Below are positions 5,180-32,620 of a stretch of DNA of 45,374 nt, piece by piece. This stretch comes from a virus: positions 1 through 45,374 of the IMG/VR virus record IMGVR_UViG_3300025293_000007; one strand, written 5' to 3'. Each line of letters starts with the position of its first letter. The first letter of the stretch is position 1. Both the position numbers and the translations under genes were made by a program. The notes under the pieces were generated by a model. That model saw only the letters and a list, made by a program, of their open reading frames with translations, was not told where the DNA came from and did no database searches.

Positions 5180-6085
5180 CTAACCTAAATTCATATTAAT
5201 CAATGAATACTCGGTATCTGCTGATACAGCCATTACATCACCAACTTCTTGTAGTACGTTGTCAGTTGCTGGTGCAACACCGCCTGCTGTACCGCCAGAG
5301 CGAACTGCTGCATTACCTACAACCAAAGTGCCTACTGTGAGAAGTGCTGCTGGTCCTTTTATAACTGCCCAACCATAATAGTCTGCTGTCATATCAACGA
5401 CAGTAGCTCCCATCAACGCACCTGTTTCTGTTGCTGGTGCAACAATTAGGTTGGTATTTGGGTTCTCTATTAGAGATAGTTGTGAGCTAGTTGTTAGTGC
5501 AGTCGCTAAATCATCGTAGCAAGTAATCTCAACAGAAGGGTCCTCTGAATGATCGTGTGCTGGATTGGATTTTACTCTAAGGCATTGTCCTTCACCATTC
5601 ACATCATTTACCCAAAGATAGCCATCTGCATATTGGTTAGCTGTTAAGTCAGTACCCCCAGTTTCAACAGATATTACAGTTTCACCTGCTGCTACTGCTG
5701 CTGTTGCTGTCATATTAGAGTGATGAGCAACTACTGCTGCGTGTTGAAGAAGTTTACCAGCAGTTACTGCTGTTCCGCCTATTTCAACATAACGATAAAC
5801 ATTATTACCGTAAACCAGAGTGCTTCCCAGAGGGAAGAGTTGCGAGGAACTTTCTGTGTAGGGATCAACTGTCCCGTACTGGCTCCCCCCTTTACCGACT
5901 ATAAGGTCAGCAGGCCCATATCCTGTTGCTGCTGCATACTGAATATGTCCACCATCATCAGTATAGACATTACCGTCTTTGTTTATTACAAAACCTTCAG
6001 TAACGGCCCCTGTCGTTGAATTGATATCAATGGTTTTAAAACCATTTTCGGAGCGTACTGCTCCTGTGAAAGTTGTATTAGCCAT
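5180..6085 (-). CDS. Virion structural protein, fibre/decoration type
   Basis: 301 residues from ATG 6085 with CAGGAGAAAG upstream. The N-terminus (MANTTFTGAVRSENGFKTI) and the internal part (LVYGNNVYRYVEIGGTAV, GKLLQHAAVVAHHSNMT, TDLTANQYADGYLWVND) mark a family of beta-rich proteins encoded right after the capsid gene in marine phages. It is probably a head decoration or fibre protein. It lies downstream of the terminator that follows the capsid gene, so its expression would be lower than the capsid unless it has its own promoter. Confidence 0.75.
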   Translation of the reverse strand: MANTTFTGAVRSENGFKTIDINSTTGAVTEGFVINKDGNVYTDDGGHIQYAAATGYGPADLIVGKGGSQYGTVDPYTESSSQLFPLGSTLVYGNNVYRYVEIGGTAVTAGKLLQHAAVVAHHSNMTATAAVAAGETVISVETGGTDLTANQYADGYLWVNDVNGEGQCLRVKSNPAHDHSEDPSVEITCYDDLATALTTSSQLSLIENPNTNLIVAPATETGALMGATVVDMTADYYGWAVIKGPAALLTVGTLVVGNAAVRSGGTAGGVAPATDNVLQEVGDVMAVSADTEYSLINMNLG

Positions 6086-6128
6086 TTCTTTCTCCTGTCT
6101 CGGCTAGTGTCTGCCACACGATGTGACA

Positions 6129-6165
6129 GTCAGGAAAAGGGAAAAGGAACGCCCGAAGGCGTTCC
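6129..6165 (-). terminator. Strong terminator after the major capsid gene
   Basis: GGAACGCC (6146-6153), tetraloop CGAA, GGCGTTCC (6158-6165): a perfect 8-bp stem. On the minus strand the loop reads UUCG and the stem is followed by a pyrimidine/U tract (UUUUCCCUUUUCC). It lies 16 nt after the capsid gene stop. This is the usual place for a partial terminator that sets capsid mRNA abundance. Confidence 0.9.
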
Positions 6166-12321: not shown

Positions 12322-13821
12322 CTAATAATAATCCGCTATCCTGTTCGGCTCCATCGGCTCATCTTCCTCGTCAGATGACAGGGAAACAAAACCTCCCTGC
12401 CTGAACCTGAGCAACGCCTGAGTACTGCTGTCCACCAGATCATCATGCTGCATATTCGGAAATCCAGCAAATTCCTCCACCACTTCTTCGGCCCATCTAG
12501 TCTTTGGACACCAGACCACCCCAGAAAAGAACAGGTCAGCAACCGCATTAACCCTCGCAATCTTGTCATTTCCACGGCTAGGCGTGTATTCAGATACGGG
12601 AATACCGATCTGCCTCAACTCGAAAATGAGCGGAGTACCTGCAGCTTTCGCTTCCACAATGAAAGCATCTGGCTTGTAGGCCCTGTACTTTTCCATTGCA
12701 GTCTTCTTCAGGTCTGGAAATTCAAGCCTTTCCTTGTAGGCATCAAGCAGGATCAGGTTTGGGGCCATTGTCCCCTCATCCTTGTTTTCTAGGTAGAAAA
12801 CCCCCCATGTAGTACAGGCAGAATAATCAGCCCTCTCTGTTTTCAGGAAGGCAGTATCCCATGACTGGATAACAAACTCGCATTTCGGGGGATCGATCCC
12901 GCTCCATTCCTTCCACCACTCCCGTTTTACGAGAGCGCCTTCTTCAGATGTCGGGTTCTGCTGATACTGGGCAGACCATTTTGAGGTAGGCAGTTCAGAG
13001 CGTAACGCCTCAAGCTCCTCCAGTTTCCAGAATTCTTCCCAAAGGGGCCTGCCTGATGGTAAAATAGCTGGTAATTCAACCACTTCCCACTGATCGGAGC
13101 CTCCTCTTTTGACGCTAGCATCGACCACTTCACCTGTAAGGTCTTTCTCGTGCCACCGCGTCATCACGACTACTATGGCCCCGCCGGGCTGGAGCCTCTG
13201 CCTCGGCCCAGAGGTATACCACTCATAAGTACGCTGGAAAACATTGAAGTCTGCGCTAGCGCCTTCCTGCTCCGAATGCGGGTCATCGATAATCAGCAGG
13301 TCTGCGCCCTTACCCGTTACCGCACCGCCCACACCGATGGCGAAATACTCCCCTCCACGGTTCGTATTCCACCTGCCTGCAGCCTTGGAGTCGGCCTGAA
13401 GGCTGGTTTTGGGGAAAATCTTTTTAAAATCAGCACTATTGACCAGATTCCTGACCTTTCTGCCGAACCCCACAGCAAGTTCAGCAGTATGGGCAGTCTG
13501 AATAATCTTCTTTTCGGGGAATCTTCCGAGAAACCAAGCAGGAAGAAGGTAGGAAGCAAACTCAGACTTGGTATGCCTAGGCGGCATATTGATAATAAGC
13601 CTCTTCAAGTCCCCTTTTGCAACCCTTTCAAAGGCTTCGGCCATGATCGAGTGATGAGCACCTTCGATAAAGGCAGACCACATCTCTTTCACAAAGGGCA
13701 TGAAGTTCTGTCCGCAGGCTTGTCTCGCCCTAGCGTCCTGTAATTCATCCAGCAGGACCAGAATTTCCTGCTTTTGCTCGATGGAAGCGTTTTGTAACTG
13801 GGTTAGTGCAACATTATTCAT
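12322..13821 (-). CDS. terL: Terminase large subunit
   Basis: 499 residues from ATG 13821. A 22-residue extension from a TTG is possible; neither start has a clear ribosome site. ATPase: P-loop-like MPPRHTKSE (about 79-87), Walker B LLIIDDPHSEQ (175-185), coupling motif VVVMTRWHEKDL (about 218-229). RNase H-like nuclease: IQSWDTAF, PDAFIVEAKAAG, and QHDDLVDSSTQAL near the C-terminus with the expected acidic residues. It cuts and pumps phage DNA into the prohead with the small subunit at 14577-15062 and the portal next door. Confidence 0.92.
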   Translation of the reverse strand: MNNVALTQLQNASIEQKQEILVLLDELQDARARQACGQNFMPFVKEMWSAFIEGAHHSIMAEAFERVAKGDLKRLIINMPPRHTKSEFASYLLPAWFLGRFPEKKIIQTAHTAELAVGFGRKVRNLVNSADFKKIFPKTSLQADSKAAGRWNTNRGGEYFAIGVGGAVTGKGADLLIIDDPHSEQEGASADFNVFQRTYEWYTSGPRQRLQPGGAIVVVMTRWHEKDLTGEVVDASVKRGGSDQWEVVELPAILPSGRPLWEEFWKLEELEALRSELPTSKWSAQYQQNPTSEEGALVKREWWKEWSGIDPPKCEFVIQSWDTAFLKTERADYSACTTWGVFYLENKDEGTMAPNLILLDAYKERLEFPDLKKTAMEKYRAYKPDAFIVEAKAAGTPLIFELRQIGIPVSEYTPSRGNDKIARVNAVADLFFSGVVWCPKTRWAEEVVEEFAGFPNMQHDDLVDSSTQALLRFRQGGFVSLSSDEEDEPMEPNRIADYY

Positions 13822-14086
13822 AGGACGAAAACATATGAGTTGCACGTTGCGTCTACTAGGGGAATGCAACCTGCAACTCGTCTGCAAGAAGAAGAGGAAA
13901 CAGGCTTTCCTTTAAGGTGAACTATTACTGTGATCCAAAACATCCGGCCTGCTCCTCCCCATAATAAGATATAACTTAGTAAGAACTTCTTTCTGTATAG
14001 AATCTCTTCCTAGATAGTTGCCTTACTAAATACCATTGTATTAATCATTCATAGCTAATACCTCTTACTAAGTACTATTTAGTAGA

Positions 14087-15197: not shown

Positions 15198-15604
15198 TAG
15201 AAGTGATATGCAGCAAGTTTGATTGGATCAACCCTCATATCATGAAACCAGTCCCCGAGGGCCTGCGGTTGTTTCAACACTGTCGCGATGACACGGTTCG
15301 AAATGTCCGCAAGTCAAATCGCTGGAACTCCATCAGGAGTTAAGAGGTAGCGGGTAGAGCGGAGAGGTTCACCAAGTGAACCAAGACCGCCAGAAAATCC
15401 AACAAGGAAGCCTTGTCTTTTGGTTGGGTTCAGTGCAGGCGGTTAGTCTTGCTAGGAGTACCCTCGGGGAAAGCAGGACGGGATAAGTTTTTTGATGCAA
15501 CGTCAACAAGAAATTCCCAACGCTGTCGAATCTGAATTCATCAGGCCAGAATAAAAATAGCGGCGAAGACAATCGGACTACGTTGGGACCTTCCTCCAAG
15601 GGTC
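15198..15604 (+). ncRNA. Large structured leader RNA, about 400 nt
   Basis: No supported reading frame crosses this stretch, but many helices do. Examples are AACTCC/GGAGTT near 15326-15341, GGTTCAC/GTGAACC at 15365-15381, ACAAGG/CCTTGT at 15401-15415, TGCGG/CCGCA (near 15264 and 15306), and a long-range CCCAACG/CGTTGGG pair (15516 and 15581). It ends at the predicted cleavage site of the ribozyme at 15593-15700. Large ornate RNAs such as GOLLD and ROOL are known from phages, and this could be such an RNA. I cannot assign it to a class by eye. Confidence 0.55.
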
Positions 15605-15700
15605 GAGCTAGTGTGGCGACTAGCTCCTGAAGATGATAGCCAGAACAAAATATTGACTAGTAAATATTTTGTTTTAAATCGAAACCAATTCACTTGGAGG
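15593..15700 (+). ncRNA. Hammerhead ribozyme 1 (type III), sequestering a ribosome binding site
   Basis: Order: GGU-C (cleavage after 15604), helix I GAGCTAGT/ACTAGCTC (15605-15612 with 15619-15626), core CUGAAGA (15627-15633), a long helix II, core GAAA (15681-15684), then ACC pairing back to GGU. Helix II begins with a bulged U, then GAU/AUC, an internal loop, and the 30-bp palindrome at 15644-15673. Helix III is extended by CCTCCAAG (15593-15600) pairing with CTTGGAGG (15693-15700), which is the ribosome binding site of the next gene. Helix I and the two core strings fit the consensus; the helix II base is imperfect. Confidence 0.6.
15644..15673. repeat. 30-bp palindrome with TTGACTAGTAAA centre
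   Basis: AACAAAATATTGACT and AGTAAATATTTTGTT are reverse complements except at one position. It is a member of a family of AT-rich dyads with core TTKACYRGTAAA found in intergenic regions here. As RNA it forms the end of helix II of ribozyme 1; as DNA it looks like an operator. Confidence 0.75.
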
Positions 15701-15708
15701 TGAATAAA

Positions 15709-15942
15709 ATGACTGCTAAAGCATTGAAAGAAAAGTACCGACAAACCAACTACCGAAAGACGATTCGCGCACACAAGAAACAGTGTCGCATTCGCGCTGA
15801 GCGGCAGGCTAAAAATAAAGGTAAGTGGATGTCGTTGGTGGAGTCTGTAAGTGCAATTTCGATTCACGATGAAATTGATTCACTCGCGGAACCCAGACAT
15901 TGGGTAGCGGTGGCAAAACTTCTCAAAAATCGTTTTGCATAA
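15709..15942 (+). CDS. Small basic protein, first gene of early module
   Basis: 77 residues from ATG 15709 behind the strong site CACTTGGAGGTGAA. Highly basic first half (KALKEKYRQTNYRKTIRAHK, then KKQCRIRAERQAKNKGKW), then a more neutral helical C-terminus (HDEIDSLAEPRHWVAVAKLL). A nucleic-acid-binding or host-takeover role is plausible; no family recognised. The end of the gene is part of ribozyme 2: the predicted cut lies inside the Phe codon two codons before the stop, so cleavage would leave a non-stop message. Confidence 0.65.
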   Translation: MTAKALKEKYRQTNYRKTIRAHKKQCRIRAERQAKNKGKWMSLVESVSAISIHDEIDSLAEPRHWVAVAKLLKNRFA

Positions 15943-15987
15943 TTTGTAAACCAACTGAAGAGCTAGCGAAAATCTAGCGAAACGATT
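15928..15987 (+). ncRNA. Hammerhead ribozyme 2 (type III), overlapping a stop codon
   Basis: Helix III AATCGT (15928-15933) with ACGATT (15982-15987), 6 bp. Cleavage site GUU, after 15934. Core CUGAAGA (15955-15961), helix II GCTAG/CTAGC (15962-15966, 15974-15978) with loop CGAAAAT, core GAAA (15979-15982). Helix I is short: UUG/CAA (15935-15937 with 15952-15954) closing a 14-nt AU-rich loop. Core and helices II and III fit the consensus; the weak helix I is the main doubt. The 5' strand lies within the coding end of the preceding gene. Confidence 0.6.
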
Positions 15988-15994
15988 CGTAATT

Positions 15995-16020
15995 AAACTT
16001 GTTGCGTATAACAAGTTTTT
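15995..16020 (+). terminator. Terminator hairpin after ribozyme 2
   Basis: AAACTTGTT (15995-16003), loop GCGTAT, AACAAGTTT (16010-16018), followed by more U residues and CC. Nine perfect pairs. It starts 8 nt after ribozyme 2. Confidence 0.65.
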
Positions 16021-16046
16021 CCTGTTCAAGGTTGAATCGTCTTGGT

Positions 16047-16073
16047 GTAACCCATTTTGGGTTACGTTTTTTT
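16047..16073 (+). terminator. Second terminator before the MoxR gene
   Basis: GTAACCCA (16047-16054) and TGGGTTAC (16058-16065) with a very short loop, then GTTTTTTT. A standard rho-independent form. With the hairpin at 15995 it makes a tandem pair, so transcripts reaching the MoxR gene would have to pass both or start nearby; no obvious promoter lies between. Confidence 0.75.
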
Positions 16074-16104: not shown

Positions 16105-17211
16105 GTGAAAACAAATCCAACAAAAGCAGTGCAAGATATTCTCAATTGTTTGAAGGCCAACCATGTGCCGTATCTGGAGGGACAAGTTGGTATCGGGAAG
16201 TCGGCCATCGTAGATGTGTGTGTGAACATACTTCGCGGTGATCGGAAGCTCGTTACTGACAAGGAATCCCTCCCGCTAGCTGTTGCACCCCCAAAGGGTT
16301 CATTCGGCTATGTGTCGGTGCGACTGGGCTTGTATGAAGCGGTAGATTTTGGCGGCTTGCCGCACATCATGTTCCGCAAGGACAACCCAGATATTGGAAT
16401 TCAGCAACGAGCATTTCTTGAGAATCTTCCACAGTCTGGTGAAGGCGTTTTGTTCTTGGATGAATTTGCACAAGCTCATGCTTCGTTGCAAAGCATCATT
16501 GGACAATTGCTCCATGAGCGTAGGCTTGGGTCCTATATTTTCCCGTCAGGTTGGCGAATAGTGTGTGCTGGAAATCGGAGTACAGACCGTGCTGGTAGCA
16601 ACAAGGTTCCAACCCATGTGGTCAGTAGGGTTCAGCTTATTGAGTTCGAAGCCAGCACAAAGGAATGGTTGATCTGGGCAGCGAAGAATTATGTTTCCCC
16701 GTTAATTACGGGTTACATATCTTACCAACCCGAAAACTTGAACGTCTTCGATCCGAAGATTGCGGGACAGCAACCGAGTTCAAGAAGTTGGGTGCGCCTT
16801 AGCGACATATTAATTGTCGCACCAGAAGTTGTTAAGAACGAGGACGACTTGCAGCGCACTACGTCACAATCTATTGGTGATGCAGCGGCGATTGATTTTG
16901 CAACATTCGTTAAGCTTCAAAACGACATTCCCAATCTGTCGGAGATTATGAAGGACGGCGGGAACGTCCAAATTCCTGACGACAACAAAATGCACTACGC
17001 CACTTGCATAGCGTTGGTCCACACAATGAAAGAAGCCGAAGCAGGCGAAGTGACTGGCTACTTTGAAAACGCACTCGCGTACATTCAAAGGATGCCAAGT
17101 GATGAGTTTGCGTTCTTCTTCATGCGTCAGGTAATTGGTCAGCGTCCTGACCTTGCTGAGACTTCTATTTATTCCGATTTCAAAATCGCCAATCAGGCTT
17201 TTGAAATTTAA
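16105..17211 (+). CDS. MoxR-type AAA+ ATPase
   Basis: 368 residues from GTG 16105, chosen because ACTTGGAGGT lies 4 nt upstream; an earlier in-frame start would lie inside the terminator. Walker A GQVGIGKS (26-33), Walker B VLFLDE (115-120), sensor 1 region WRIVCAGNRS (150-159), then a helical lid. MoxR ATPases act as chaperones with VWA-domain partners; a VWA protein lies two genes downstream. They commonly remodel or activate metalloenzymes and other complexes. In a phage the target is unknown. CobS-like ATPases of T4-type phages are distant alternatives. Confidence 0.85.
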   Translation: MKTNPTKAVQDILNCLKANHVPYLEGQVGIGKSAIVDVCVNILRGDRKLVTDKESLPLAVAPPKGSFGYVSVRLGLYEAVDFGGLPHIMFRKDNPDIGIQQRAFLENLPQSGEGVLFLDEFAQAHASLQSIIGQLLHERRLGSYIFPSGWRIVCAGNRSTDRAGSNKVPTHVVSRVQLIEFEASTKEWLIWAAKNYVSPLITGYISYQPENLNVFDPKIAGQQPSSRSWVRLSDILIVAPEVVKNEDDLQRTTSQSIGDAAAIDFATFVKLQNDIPNLSEIMKDGGNVQIPDDNKMHYATCIALVHTMKEAEAGEVTGYFENALAYIQRMPSDEFAFFFMRQVIGQRPDLAETSIYSDFKIANQAFEI

Positions 17212-17213
17212 AA

Positions 17214-17317
17214 CCACTGATGAGACCTGCAGGAATTCCAATTCCAAATAATTATTTACCAGTAAATATTTATTCGGTGAGGGCAGGCGAAACGCGCACG
17301 GGAGGTTGCGCGTTTGG
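17214..17317 (+). ncRNA. Hammerhead ribozyme 3 (type I candidate)
   Basis: Core CUGAUGA (17217-17223), helix II G(A)CCTGC with GCAGGC (17224-17230, 17283-17288; one bulged A), core GAAA (17289-17292), helix III ACGCGC/GCGCGT (17292-17297, 17308-17313) around a 10-nt loop, cleavage GUU after 17314, and helix I ACC-A side ACCA/TGG (17214-17216 with 17315-17317). All conserved strings occur in the right order. Helix I is only 3 bp before purine mismatches, which lowers confidence. Helix II carries the palindrome at 17247-17274. Confidence 0.5.
17247..17274. repeat. AT-rich palindrome with TTTACCAGTAAA centre
   Basis: AATAATTATTTACC and AGTAAATATTTATT pair with one internal mismatch besides the centre. 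It is the second member of the TTKACYRGTAAA family and lies within helix II of ribozyme 3. Confidence 0.7.
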
Positions 17318-17375: not shown

Positions 17376-18362
17376 ATGGTTAAGAAAACCAAAAGTACCT
17401 TAGCTGAAAACGCTACTCTTGTTAGGCTTACCGCGAAGAATTTTTCGGGCGTTAAGGTTGACAGGGAAGCGCGGAAAGCACTCGCGAAAGAGTTCAATGC
17501 AAATGAAAAGTCTCTGCAAAGCAACAAACATCTGCTAGGAACTCCATGCTCTGCGCCCTTTCGGTCCATCGTGAATCGTTTTCGGAACGATAACGGGGGA
17601 TACCTTGAGGTCACCTTACCTTGGCATGACAATACGCCAGCCGAAAACACTTCGAATAAAACTCAGGTTGTCGGATGGCGCATTTGTCCCAACAAGGAAT
17701 TGCAGGGCTTGCTTGATAAATTCCAAGAATCCAAACGCGAGTTTGATTCGCTAAAAGAGGAATTCATTAAGGATTACCCGAAGAGGGTTGAAGCTTCGAA
17801 GAAAGCTTTGGGAGGTCTCTGGAAACGGCAAGACTACCCATCGCAGTCTGAGGTTGAGGATAAGTTCTACTACCACCTTGAAGTTGGAGGAGTTCCAACA
17901 GGTAAGAAAGAAGGTGAGGTGGACATTCGACTCAATCTCAGCAAAGAGCTTCGCGAGCGAATCGAAGCGGACGCTGAAAGACGTATTCGACAAAGCGTGG
18001 AAAATGCTGCGAAGGATACTGTCGAGAGCTTACTGTCCGAGGTTAGCCATCTCGCTACCAAGTTGGTTGAGTATGATCCGAAGAATAAACAGAAGTCGTT
18101 CTTCAAGGATGCAAGCTTTGACAATTTGCGAGATACGCTGTCCAAATTGCCGACAATTAACGAGGACATTCTTGGTGGAAATTCAGACATCAAGAAAGCT
18201 CACCAGAAATTGGTGAAAACTTTCTCAACAATTGGAAGCGATTTGGAGTCATACAGGGAAGACACTGCAGAGTCGAAGGCGAAAAGGGACACTCTCTCCG
18301 AGAGTCTCGACAAGTCAGTGGACAATCTGAAAGACAGCTTCTTGGGCAAGGCGTTTAAGTAA
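17376..18362 (+). CDS. DUF3150-like protein between MoxR and VWA genes
   Basis: 328 residues from ATG 17376 behind CACTTGGAGGTGAAAC. N-terminal NATLVRLTAKNFSGVKVDRE, then KEFNANEKSLQSNKHLLG, a helical middle (LLDKFQESKREFDSLKEEF), FYYHLEVGGVPTG and RLNLSKELRERIEADAERRI, and a Lys/Asp-rich coiled-coil C-terminus. The length, the sequence style and the position between a MoxR ATPase and a VWA protein suggest the DUF3150 group, which I name tentatively. It is likely the third partner or substrate adaptor of the complex. No catalytic motif seen. Confidence 0.7.
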   Translation: MVKKTKSTLAENATLVRLTAKNFSGVKVDREARKALAKEFNANEKSLQSNKHLLGTPCSAPFRSIVNRFRNDNGGYLEVTLPWHDNTPAENTSNKTQVVGWRICPNKELQGLLDKFQESKREFDSLKEEFIKDYPKRVEASKKALGGLWKRQDYPSQSEVEDKFYYHLEVGGVPTGKKEGEVDIRLNLSKELRERIEADAERRIRQSVENAAKDTVESLLSEVSHLATKLVEYDPKNKQKSFFKDASFDNLRDTLSKLPTINEDILGGNSDIKKAHQKLVKTFSTIGSDLESYREDTAESKAKRDTLSESLDKSVDNLKDSFLGKAFK

Positions 18363-18368
18363 GGTGAA

Positions 18369-18392
18369 GGGGGGAACGATTTTGTTCCCCCC
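18369..18392 (+). other. Stable hairpin abutting ribozyme 4
   Basis: GGGGGGAAC (18369-18377), loop GATTTT, GTTCCCCCC (18384-18392): nine perfect pairs, ending one base before helix III of the ribozyme. There is no U tract. After ribozyme cleavage it would sit 6 nt from the new 3' end of the upstream mRNA and could protect it. Confidence 0.8.
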
Positions 18393-18443
18393 GCTGTATT
18401 GGAATGTGTATTCCAACTGATGAGATCGAAAGATCGAAACAGC
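18393..18443 (+). ncRNA. Hammerhead ribozyme 4 (type III, full consensus)
   Basis: Helix III GCTGT (18393-18397) with ACAGC (18439-18443). Cleavage site GUA, between 18398 and 18399. Helix I TTGGAAT/ATTCCAA (18399-18405, 18410-18416) with loop GTGT. Core CUGAUGA (18417-18423). Helix II GATC/GATC (18424-18427, 18432-18435) with GAAA loop. Core GAAA (18436-18439). Every conserved position matches. Its twin at 20040-20090 has compensatory changes in helices I and III. It lies 31 nt 5' of the VWA gene, before its ribosome binding site. Confidence 0.92.
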
Positions 18444-18474
18444 AAATATATTCATATCACTTGGAGGTGAAACA

Positions 18475-19986
18475 ATGAATATTGAAACGATGAATGAGCA
18501 AGCAATGATAGCTTTGAAACGCTCTAACCTTCGCGTCATGCGCGATCACATGAGCTTGTCGAAGATATTATTGAACCTCAAACCTGTGATGTTAGAGAGT
18601 GGCACTTGTGCAACCGACATGATTCACTTTTTCTATAATCCAGAATACGTTCTCAGTCGGACTGAGGATGAATTGGATTTTGTTGTGACGCATGAAGTTG
18701 GACATGATTACTTTGAACATCCGCTCCGAATTGGATCGTGGAATCTGAAGCTCTTTAATATAGCTGCAGACCTTTCGATCAATTCTTTTCTCGTTTATGA
18801 ATGCGGCTTGACAATGCCTAAGGGCGGTCTGTTGCTGCCTGAGTATCGGGGATGGGCGGTCGAAGCTATATGCCGCGATCTGGACAACAACCCTGAGAAG
18901 CTTAAGGAAATTGTCGAGGAATTAACTAAGGACGATGACGGCGAAGAAGAGACCATGTGGACCCGTTCAGAAGACGGCGAAGACGGCTCCGAAGGCGAAG
19001 AGTCCGAAGGCGAATCCGAAGGCGAATCCGAAGGCGAAGGCGAAGGCGAAGAGTCCGAAGAAACTTGCAATAACTGCGGGACTGAAATCGACAACGGTGG
19101 AAACTGGGGTCGCTGTGATCCATGCGCAGATGAAGAAGATTCAGACTCCGACTCAGGTTCCGAAGGCGAAGGCGATGGCAAAGAAAATCAGACTGATAAA
19201 TATTCTGATTTGCCCGAGCTGGCTGGAGGTGTTGTTGCGCCAAGGCATGATGATGGGACCAAGCTTGATAGCAACGAGATGGAAGAGCTTCGAGGTGAAT
19301 TCCAACGGGCTAAAACCCTTGCGGAAAAACTCGAAGCAACCTTGCCAGCTGGAAGTGACACTGGCAATTGGACCACAGCGGCAGCGGATAACCCGAAGCA
19401 CCAAGGCGAAATCAACTGGAAGGAATTGATGAAGGATAAACTCATGGATTCACTTTCGGACGATACGACTTGGTCGCGGCCAAACCGCCGATTTGCATGG
19501 TCTGGGACTTATCTTCCATCGCGGCTTAAATCGCCTAATGGCGGCGAAGTTGCGGTGATGGTTGATACGTCAGGTTCTGTTTCACAGCGTGAGCTAGATG
19601 TCTTTTCTGCAGAGCTTCAGATTCTTCTGGAGGAATGCGGGATTGAGCGGGTCAGAATCTGCTACTGCGATACCAGCGTTAAGAAAAACAGTGACGGCGA
19701 GTGGTGGGACGTTTTTGACCTCGATCAAGAGGACTTGAAAATGGTTAGGCGAGGTGGTGGTGGTACATCCTTCACCCCCCCGTTCAACCTGTTCAACGAT
19801 TGGTCCGAAGGCGAAGTGGATGACGTAGTTGCGATCATCTACTTCACTGACGGCGAGGGAGAAGTTGATGAGGATGTGGAGCCAGACGTACCCGTAATCT
19901 GGGCAGTGACTTCTGAGAGTTGCTGGTCTGAGGAGCTTCCCTTCGGAGAGATCGTCTACATTGATCCGATAGACTTGCGTTGGTAG
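18475..19986 (+). CDS. Metallopeptidase-like / VWA-domain protein (DUF2201 type)
   Basis: 503 residues from ATG 18475 with CACTTGGAGGTGAAACA. N-terminal metallopeptidase-like domain with HEVGH at 73-77 in the context VVTHEVGHDYFEHPL. An acidic, repetitive linker (about 145-190, EGESEGESEGE) is followed by a zinc ribbon CNNC...CDPC (about 195-215). The C-terminal VWA domain has the MIDAS motif VDTSGSVS (about 363-370), TSFTPPF and YFTDGEGE. This is the COG3864/DUF2201 design, which normally pairs with MoxR ATPases, as here. Whether HExxH is catalytic or structural is not known. Confidence 0.85.
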   Translation: MNIETMNEQAMIALKRSNLRVMRDHMSLSKILLNLKPVMLESGTCATDMIHFFYNPEYVLSRTEDELDFVVTHEVGHDYFEHPLRIGSWNLKLFNIAADLSINSFLVYECGLTMPKGGLLLPEYRGWAVEAICRDLDNNPEKLKEIVEELTKDDDGEEETMWTRSEDGEDGSEGEESEGESEGESEGEGEGEESEETCNNCGTEIDNGGNWGRCDPCADEEDSDSDSGSEGEGDGKENQTDKYSDLPELAGGVVAPRHDDGTKLDSNEMEELRGEFQRAKTLAEKLEATLPAGSDTGNWTTAAADNPKHQGEINWKELMKDKLMDSLSDDTTWSRPNRRFAWSGTYLPSRLKSPNGGEVAVMVDTSGSVSQRELDVFSAELQILLEECGIERVRICYCDTSVKKNSDGEWWDVFDLDQEDLKMVRRGGGGTSFTPPFNLFNDWSEGEVDDVVAIIYFTDGEGEVDEDVEPDVPVIWAVTSESCWSEELPFGEIVYIDPIDLRW

Positions 19987-19999
19987 GTGAGAGAGAGAA

Positions 20000-20027
20000 A
20001 GAGGGCGCGACAAAAGTCGCGCCCTCT
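20000..20027 (+). other. Stable hairpin upstream of ribozyme 5
   Basis: AGAGGGCGCGAC (20000-20011), loop AAAA, GTCGCGCCCTCT (20016-20027): 12 perfect pairs right after the VWA gene and 13 nt before helix III of ribozyme 5. There is no U tract, so it looks like an mRNA 3'-end protector made by ribozyme cleavage rather than a terminator. Confidence 0.8.
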
Positions 20028-20039
20028 GGGCGGGGATAA

Positions 20040-20090
20040 TCTGTCGTGGAATGTGTGTTCCACCTGATGAGATCGAAAGATCGAAACAGA
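20040..20090 (+). ncRNA. Hammerhead ribozyme 5 (type III, full consensus)
   Basis: Helix III TCTGT (20040-20044) with ACAGA (20086-20090). Cleavage site GUC, between 20045 and 20046. Helix I GTGGAAT/GTTCCAC (20046-20052, 20057-20063) with loop GTGT and one G-U pair. Core CUGAUGA (20064-20070), helix II GATC/GATC with GAAA loop, core GAAA (20083-20086). Compared with ribozyme 4, the outer helix III pair changes G-C to U-A and the first helix I pair changes U-A to G-C. Structure is therefore kept while sequence changed. Confidence 0.92.
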
Positions 20091-20400: not shown

Positions 20401-20457
20401 ACCACTGTCTCAGACTGAAAGTCTGGCTGAATGAGTCCAAAAGGACGAAACAGGGGT
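20401..20457 (+). ncRNA. Hammerhead-like ribozyme 6 with a variant core
   Basis: Helix III CTGT (20405-20408) with ACAG (20450-20453), then an A-G mismatch and ACC/GGT (20401-20403, 20455-20457). Cleavage site GUC after 20409. Helix I TCAGAC/GTCTGG (20410-20415, 20421-20426). Helix II GTCC/GGAC (20435-20438, 20443-20446) with AAAA loop, core GAAA (20447-20450). The other core strand reads CUGAAUGA, one A more than CUGAUGA. The architecture is complete, so this is either a natural core variant or a decayed copy. Confidence 0.6.
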
Positions 20458-32065: not shown

Positions 32066-32620
32066 ATGCCAGCAATGGTAAAAGTTTGTTACGGAATTTT
32101 CTTTGAAAATGTATGCGGTGGGGCGGTAGTTTTCAGCGATGAATATGCAGAAAATCTCGGAGTCTGGGATAAATACGATTTCACTGGAAAAATTATTTTG
32201 CTGTCCAGAGGAGCTTGCGTACATTGGGCGCACAAACATTCGGCAAGCAGATTGATTTCAAGGGCAATTAAATTATTACCAGTAAAATATAAAATCATCA
32301 CGGCGACCACCGATGAACTTGCTGGAGAAATTGGAACAATTTACCAAGCCTGTAATTTTAATTATGTCGGCGTGATGCGAAAGACTGACACCAGATTGGG
32401 CGTGTCGGTAAATGGAAAACTGTACGGTTCAAGATCAATCCGGCAAAAGATCGGCACTACAAAGAAAGAAGAGATTCTCGATATGTTTCCCAACGCAGAA
32501 TTCATTGAGCAGAAATCCAAGTCCAGATACTTTTTTTTCAGAGGTACGAAGCAAGAGAAAAAATATCACAGGGCGCAGATAGAGAAACTCATTAAACCCT
32601 ATCCGAAGAGGACGGCATGA
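32066..32620 (+). CDS. Mom-like DNA modification protein (N-terminus may start upstream)
   Basis: 184 residues from ATG 32066, the first standard start. GNAT-like Mom family pattern: VKVCYGIFFENVCGGAVVFS, a strand, then LLSRGACVHWAHKHSASRLI with SRAIKLLP, and IGTIYQACNFNYVGVM. Mu Mom modifies adenine in DNA so that host restriction fails. The frame is open upstream to 31847. Residues encoded there (KIREEKALKPSEDLFGRWWE, then EVREISYGQANEIIEKYEWL) look like the normal N-terminus of the family, so the listed start is probably internal. See the finding. Confidence 0.75.
   Translation: MPAMVKVCYGIFFENVCGGAVVFSDEYAENLGVWDKYDFTGKIILLSRGACVHWAHKHSASRLISRAIKLLPVKYKIITATTDELAGEIGTIYQACNFNYVGVMRKTDTRLGVSVNGKLYGSRSIRQKIGTTKKEEILDMFPNAEFIEQKSKSRYFFFRGTKQEKKYHRAQIEKLIKPYPKRTA

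Follow-up and report, generated by a model that had tools for sequence, protein, structure and literature searches.

What do two nearly identical ribozymes do on either side of a single phage gene? The question arises from a viral DNA of 45,374 bases, one IMG/VR virus record in its whole length, which is called the window here. On its + strand, two type III hammerheads, HHR-A and HHR-B, flank a DUF2201 VWA/metallopeptidase-like gene, which follows an AAA and a DUF3150-like gene in the same operon. The answer that we favour, with a probability of about 0.68, is that these and further hammerheads of the operon serve in intercistronic mRNA processing and end protection.

Hammerheads and hairpins of the operon

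The features of the operon are given below in their order along the window. R2 denotes a type III covariance model built from nine relatives with the window sequence left out, and R3 a type I model built from relatives only, also without window sequence.

15950..16046, + strand: type I hammerhead 5' of the AAA gene; predicted cleavage C16041/U16042; found by descriptor and by R3 (48.6 bits, E 8.9e-11)
16047..16065, + strand: hairpin GUAACCC...GGGUUAC followed by U7; fold z -4.2; hairpins of relatives at the same position
16105..17211, + strand: AAA ATPase gene (PHROG 1297); GTG start; PHROGs E 2.6e-66
17214..17317, + strand: probable type I hammerhead adjoining the AAA stop codon; found by descriptor; same place and type in L074, L075 and L080
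17319..17335, + strand: hairpin shortly 3' of the preceding ribozyme; fold z -2.9
17376..18362, + strand: DUF3150-like gene; Pfam PF11348, E 8e-5, slightly under its cut-off; homologues of relatives in the same order
18369..18392, + strand: hairpin GGGGGGAACGAUUUUGUUCCCCCC between the DUF3150 stop and HHR-A; 10-bp stem, 0 nt before HHR-A, without U tract; spacer z -3.7
18393..18443, + strand: HHR-A, type III hammerhead; predicted cleavage A18398/U18399; R2 45.5 bits, E 1.1e-10
18475..19986, + strand: DUF2201 VWA/metallopeptidase-like gene (PHROG 1314); Pfam PF13203 E 1e-30, PF09967 E 5e-16; PHROGs E 2.7e-67
20000..20027, + strand: hairpin AGAGGGCGCGACAAAAGUCGCGCCCUCU 3' of the DUF2201 stop; 12-bp stem, without U tract; spacer z -6.4, in a second run -5.9
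20040..20090, + strand: HHR-B, type III hammerhead; predicted cleavage C20045/G20046; R2 47.8 bits, E 2.5e-11
20402..20456, + strand: type III hammerhead with an additional A in the core (CUGA-A-UGAG); predicted cleavage after C20409; R2 E 3.8e-4

HHR-A reads GCUGU A / UUGGAAU GUGU AUUCCAA CUGAUGA GAUC GAAA GAUC GAA ACAGC and HHR-B reads UCUGU C / GUGGAAU GUGU GUUCCAC CUGAUGA GAUC GAAA GAUC GAA ACAGA. Both consist of a helix III of 5 bp, a helix I of 7 bp and a helix II of 4 bp around a complete consensus core. The sequence-only reading had placed type III hammerheads at 18393-18443 and 20040-20090, and they were confirmed at exactly these coordinates on the + strand, with a full core and three perfect helices. 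The two copies differ by six substitutions. Positions 1 and 51 of the motif form G-C in HHR-A and U-A in HHR-B, positions 7 and 24 form U-A and G-C, respectively, and the cleavage base at position 6 is A in HHR-A and C in HHR-B. These two compensated pairs and the cleavage base had been listed before; an A (HHR-A) to G (HHR-B) exchange at position 18 had been missed, which converts the last helix I pair from U-A to U-G and thereby keeps the pairing. The two covarying pairs had been regarded as direct support for the structure. The changes are real but make a thin argument when taken alone, given that the copies are nearly identical.

A strict compact descriptor matched the window twice, as opposed to one match in total over 200 dinucleotide shuffles, and produced no match when 977 kb of related loci were shuffled once. 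Furthermore, the invariant hammerhead core (C3 U4 G5 A6 N7 G8 A9...G12 A13 A14, A15.1-U16.1, H17) is exact in HHR-A, HHR-B and the type I copies at 15950 and 17214. A type I reading of HHR-A via the Shine-Dalgarno sequence (18412-18465) was ruled out, as position 16.1 is not U. Searches with Rfam at the gathering threshold reported no hammerhead in the window, and the Rfam type III model reported neither HHR-A nor HHR-B even at E<=10. The missing annotation is explained by the limited sensitivity of the Rfam model; the gathering threshold of RF00008, 48.5 bits, is a detection threshold and not a biological feature. For HHR-B alone, a non-ribozyme fold is predicted to be slightly better than the ribozyme fold (-15.2 vs -14.0 kcal/mol), which counts against our reading.

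The description of HHR-A and HHR-B as a twin pair holds insofar as both copies are real, and it is incomplete, because the set comprises at least four, probably five, operon hammerheads. The type I hammerhead 5' of the AAA gene carries an insert of ~40 nt in helix III. The hairpin directly 3' of its helix I may stabilise the 5' end of the AAA message and is also terminator-like. Two copies, at 17214 and 20402, are weaker than the other operon hammerheads. The former is ranked as a weaker candidate because R3 does not find it; its helix I comprises just 3 bp, a point against mRNA processing, and its long helix II insert contains a TTTACCAGTAAA palindrome. The latter reached 33.7 bits with Rfam RF00008, below gathering, and was reported solely at relaxed settings. 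The absence of an upstream hairpin at this copy (z 0.5) likewise counts against our reading. In Perreault 2011 (PMC3088659), an A6a core insertion resembling this copy displayed low activity when tested. The CUGA-A-UGAG insertion is also present in L042 (3445-3502 and 3989-4051) and L043. Since it occurs in separate lineages, in L042 beside copies with a normal core, a ribozyme with slow cleavage may have been retained for a purpose.

A further candidate at ~15594-15690, with an 8-bp helix I, a CUGAAGAU core and a 3-bp helix III, was set aside as unproven. Within window 15592-15700, an upstream CCUCCAAG is complementary to the Shine-Dalgarno sequence CUUGGAGG of a small ORF at 15709, and this complementarity surrounds the degenerate hammerhead-like element. 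A near-palindrome resembling TTTAC[CT][AG]GTAAA, flanked by A+T-rich DNA, is found repeatedly between genes close to hammerheads of the window (15654, 17255, 20100, 22047 and 32276) and of relatives (D-V gap of L073; leaders of L074, L075 and L080). It resembles an operator or a phage promoter. Helix III inserts of ~30 to ~150 nt were observed in the type I hammerheads L080:3060-3238, L019:1513-1644, L045:1984-2063, L074:3422-3510 and window 15950-16046. A recurring insert is composed of UUAAA, a hairpin and CCUGU..AAGG and resembles a three-way junction. Such inserts could act as scaffolds or, as in a natural aptazyme, sense a ligand; in comparison with Rfam, no non-hammerhead family matched there.

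Elsewhere in the window, the large terminase (12322-13887, - strand) shares 52-56% identity with Pelagibacter phages HTVC027P/HTVC023P and phage 023Pt_psg01, which suggests a marine phage. An Rfam Mu-gpT-DE RNA (62.7 bits; 6083-6135, - strand) is located directly 5' of ORF 5180-6085, beside capsid genes. A Mom family protein (32066-32620, + strand; PF25680, E 6.6e-18) represents a DNA-modification gene, compare phage Mu. The DUF2201 gene harbors an internal repeat of TCCGAAGGCGAA units (18970-19061) coding for an acidic Glu/Gly/Ser linker.

Conservation in related phages

Viral contigs of uncultivated phages, partly fragments, supplied relatives of the AAA and DUF2201 proteins. Near-copies aside, their AAA proteins are mostly 40-50% identical to that of the window. 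Over 48 loci, 90 type III and 57 type I matches were obtained, and all but one reside on the coding strand (89 of the 90 type III and all type I matches on the operon strand). Among the type III matches (65 distinct), 95.9% of the cells were paired, compared with 37-43% when partners were slid; double changes occurred in 17 of 18 pairs, with a covariation score of 0.731 vs <=0.09 for slid partners. The 44 distinct type I rows gave a similar picture, with 96.5% of the cells paired, double changes in 15 of 17 pairs and a score of 0.615 vs <=0.11. Both alignments were fitted to the models, a bias towards the structure, but the gap between paired and slid partners was judged too big for model fitting by itself. 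The two loops that would make the tertiary contact expected of a hammerhead are conserved over the type III rows including HHR-A and HHR-B: loop I reads UGUGU, and loop II is A-rich. A covariance model with helices out of register (R1, from alignment A3) was discarded.

The sequence-only reading had proposed covariation in related phages as its check, and the pair counts, used in place of R-scape, bear it out for type III. Relatives with intact genes and broken helices, which would have spoken against the structure, were not seen; nearly every relative that covers the region 3' of DUF2201 has an intact hammerhead there. As a negative control, the type III model was applied to chromosomal AAA homologues, mostly from Campylobacterota, and no match reached significance. 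Both models were also applied to the whole records of phage isolates with a related AAA/DUF2201 or TerL (Pelagibacter phages HTVC027P and HTVC023P, 023Pt_psg01, DSL-LC04, a Schitoviridae phage and others), and neither matched any of them. The hammerhead system is thus not essential to such operons.

Grouping of the contigs at 95% AAA nucleotide identity resulted in 23 clusters, in which nearly every real gap around AAA, DUF3150 and DUF2201 holds a coding-strand hammerhead. In most clusters one is situated within 200 nt 5' of AAA, usually of type I and of type III in L074, L075 and L081. The AAA-DUF3150 gap contains a hammerhead in every cluster with a gap >=110 nt, counting that of the L051 cluster, which the model missed and inspection found, and in none with a gap <60 nt. 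In most clusters, DUF2201 directly adjoins DUF3150 or overlaps with it, and no hammerhead lies between the two. A wide gap at this position exists only in the window lineage (116 nt) and in L073 (201 nt), each with a hammerhead; a few other rows seem to have a wide gap as well, apparently an artefact of alignment, because the two genes overlap in contigs of the same cluster. 3' of DUF2201, a type III hammerhead is present in nearly all contigs reaching that far. No hammerhead was found just 5' of AAA in L013, 5' of AAA or 3' of DUF2201 in L073, or around any of the three genes in L076. The absences in L013 (5' of AAA) and in L073 (after DUF2201) count against our reading.

Since the wide DUF3150-DUF2201 gap is confined to two lineages and holds a hammerhead in both, HHR-A is best read as a later copy of HHR-B in a newly opened gap. 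HHR-B has a syntenic counterpart in most relatives, whereas a copy at the place of HHR-A is confined to lineages with the wide gap. HHR-A and HHR-B are thus not conserved together, and the earlier view of them as a pair is incomplete. This bears on a very improbable explanation, namely that both ribozymes excise and circularise the DUF2201 message in the manner of viroid-like RNAs or retrozymes. Two near-identical ribozymes of the same type do flank one gene on one strand, and type III hammerheads elsewhere process circular RNAs. However, most relatives contain just the downstream copy and L073 just the upstream copy. Moreover, in the ligation hybrid helix III is mismatched by the covarying outer pair (UCUGU with ACAGC, 4 bp), and the best fold of the hybrid is not a hammerhead. 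Circles were also not detected by Perreault 2011 (PMC3088659). Circularisation was rejected on the grounds that only the HHR-B position is widely conserved and the hybrid is mismatched.

The ribozyme type also differs between relatives at the same gap. For the type I hammerheads in the AAA-DUF3150 gap, parsimony on the AAA tree requires two changes; well-supported branches alone force only one, and the window itself sits on a long, poorly placed branch. After DUF2201, L068 carries an intrinsic terminator (hairpin and U9) where L051, a member of the same 95% AAA cluster, has a hairpin and a hammerhead. This exchange and the changes of ribozyme type per gap were counted in favour of mRNA processing and end protection.

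Arrangement of stop codons and hairpins by ribozyme type

The stretches between the DUF2201 stop codon and the hammerhead fold with a mean z of -5.25, compared with -1.03 for same-length stretches in the gene (17 loci; p 4e-10, an overstatement because relatives are not independent). When all gaps were considered, 40 of 43 type III spacers displayed z<-3. The stems upstream of type III hammerheads have a median length of 19 bp and reach up to 29 bp, and they end a median of 5 nt before the ribozyme. As only 5 of 39 of these hairpins possess a U-rich tail, most do not look like intrinsic terminators. Hairpins 3' of stop codons have other common causes, which counts against our reading, as do the U-rich tails of these five.

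Type I hammerheads are placed differently. They lie within 22 nt of a stop codon in 21 of 27 cases, whereas none of 40 type III hammerheads does so (Fisher p 2e-12, likewise overstated by the non-independence of relatives). The ORF stops come from a simple script that left short upstream ORFs uncalled, which probably makes a few type I distances wrong. Where type I starts at the stop codon, the sequence often reads UAA, then ACC. The region 3' of type I helix I has a mean z of -3.2 (26 sites with enough leader), with L074 as an exception, and most of these sites exhibit a hairpin of 6-8 bp from, or next to, the first base past helix I. Type III hammerheads are mostly found 10-25 nt 5' of the Shine-Dalgarno sequence. 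Pattern scans beyond the gene family agreed with this arrangement in other gene contexts too, and no hammerhead lay within a long ORF; the out-of-family type I sample is partly biased, as the search pattern contained TAA, and the claim rests on the unbiased in-family set. It is hardly credible that the ribozymes are selfish or neutral elements spreading among gaps without a role. The near-identity of HHR-A and HHR-B and the variable type at the same gap would be expected of such elements, but strong covariation, gap-specific retention and type-specific placement across proteins ~50% identical speak against them.

From this arrangement we infer how the operon might be processed. It would be transcribed into one long RNA, which the intergenic hammerheads would cut, during or after transcription, into gene-length messages. 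At a type III site, the upstream message would retain the separate hairpin 3' of its stop codon, and the downstream message would begin with a 5'-OH on the helix I hairpin of the ribozyme itself. At a type I site, the upstream message would end on ribozyme helix III directly 3' of the stop codon, and the downstream message would start with a short strand followed by a hairpin. Because the predicted cut lies on the 5' side of a type III and on the 3' side of a type I ribozyme, a stable stem would be positioned at or near both new ends either way. As is generally known, stems stall exonucleases, and an RNA with a paired 5' end decays more slowly. Through altered stability, each cistron would decay and be translated independently, without terminators or host endonucleases, to the presumed benefit of the phage. 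In a more general and tentative form, to which we give slightly less than even odds, hammerhead and hairpin units of this phage lineage would constitute a grammar for making mRNA ends that replaces terminators and host endonucleases, with type I or type III per gap and hairpins capping the bare side.

The stems could also be the active elements, as RNase III sites or weak terminators, with hammerheads that are secondary or act as regulated switches. Their length and their position adjoining the ribozyme would fit such a role, and some helix III inserts are big enough for sensors. This explanation is improbable, however, given the rarity of U-rich tails and the type I gaps, which lack a separate upstream hairpin while the ribozyme structure still covaries. 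Alternatively, cleavage might strip upstream RNA and provide a fixed local context for each ribosome-binding site, comparable to the synthetic RiboJ insulator. The order of ribozyme, immediate hairpin and Shine-Dalgarno sequence at type I sites is that of RiboJ (PMC8794103), and the short distance of type III hammerheads to the Shine-Dalgarno sequence points in the same direction. However, neither the strong hairpins 5' of type III nor the terminator in L068 is explained by a role in translation, which we consider unlikely as the principal function. Such insulation is compatible with mRNA processing and end protection and may be a second benefit.

The role of prokaryotic hammerheads becomes testable in one short operon with several ribozymes at fixed places. 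Clear predictions follow for every RNA end, one ribozyme type stands in for the other and a terminator for a ribozyme among natural relatives, and the logic of the hairpins would indicate the purpose of the cut. It would also be a natural counterpart to the synthetic ribozyme insulators of gene circuits.

Comparison with known ribozyme systems

The window hammerheads share the core and three-helix fold of Rfam Hammerhead_3 (RF00008) and the type I fold. Unlike the copy at 20402, which is a sub-threshold RF00008 hit, HHR-A and HHR-B were not recovered by the Rfam models and have loop I UGUGU and the A-rich loop II in common with their phage relatives. A 2017 review (PMC6155905) noted a link of hammerheads to phages and called their role in bacteria and phages an open question. 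In the open-licence literature, covered mainly by titles and abstracts, no report was found in which a single set of genes is punctuated gap by gap in a conserved manner, or in which the hairpin rule is described.

The closest precedent is Perreault 2011 (PMC3088659). Fig. 3 of that study presents clustered hammerheads of mixed type around single prophage genes or short gene blocks, some of which cleaved in vitro and in E. coli and which were proposed to cut long phage transcripts into gene-length mRNAs. The window resembles these clusters in having several co-oriented hammerheads around single genes of one phage genome. In contrast to the flanked genes described there, which are not constant, AAA, DUF3150 and DUF2201 retain hammerheads in corresponding gaps throughout a lineage of phages. 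Moreover, the layout depends on the ribozyme type, and the sections consulted describe no such hairpins. Gene-flanking phage hammerheads are therefore already known from this work, and the regular layout appears to be new. The same source covers HHphage of haloviruses HF1/HF2, where a transcript 5' end maps <=3 nt from the cut site. As in the window, a hammerhead lies directly 5' of a phage gene; unlike the window, it is a single variant-core ribozyme before the first gene of the transcript and does not punctuate an operon.

Retrozymes and viroid-like RNAs are bounded by pairs of type III hammerheads, as HHR-A and HHR-B bound the DUF2201 gene, but in these phages the two copies are not conserved together and would form a weakened ligation hybrid. 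RiboJ, a synthetic insulator, combines the sTRSV ribozyme with a 23-nt hairpin (PMC8794103). Most of the 26 type I sites with room for it have a similar hairpin between ribozyme and ribosome-binding site. RiboJ is engineered and placed after promoters, whereas the phage arrangement is natural and intercistronic.
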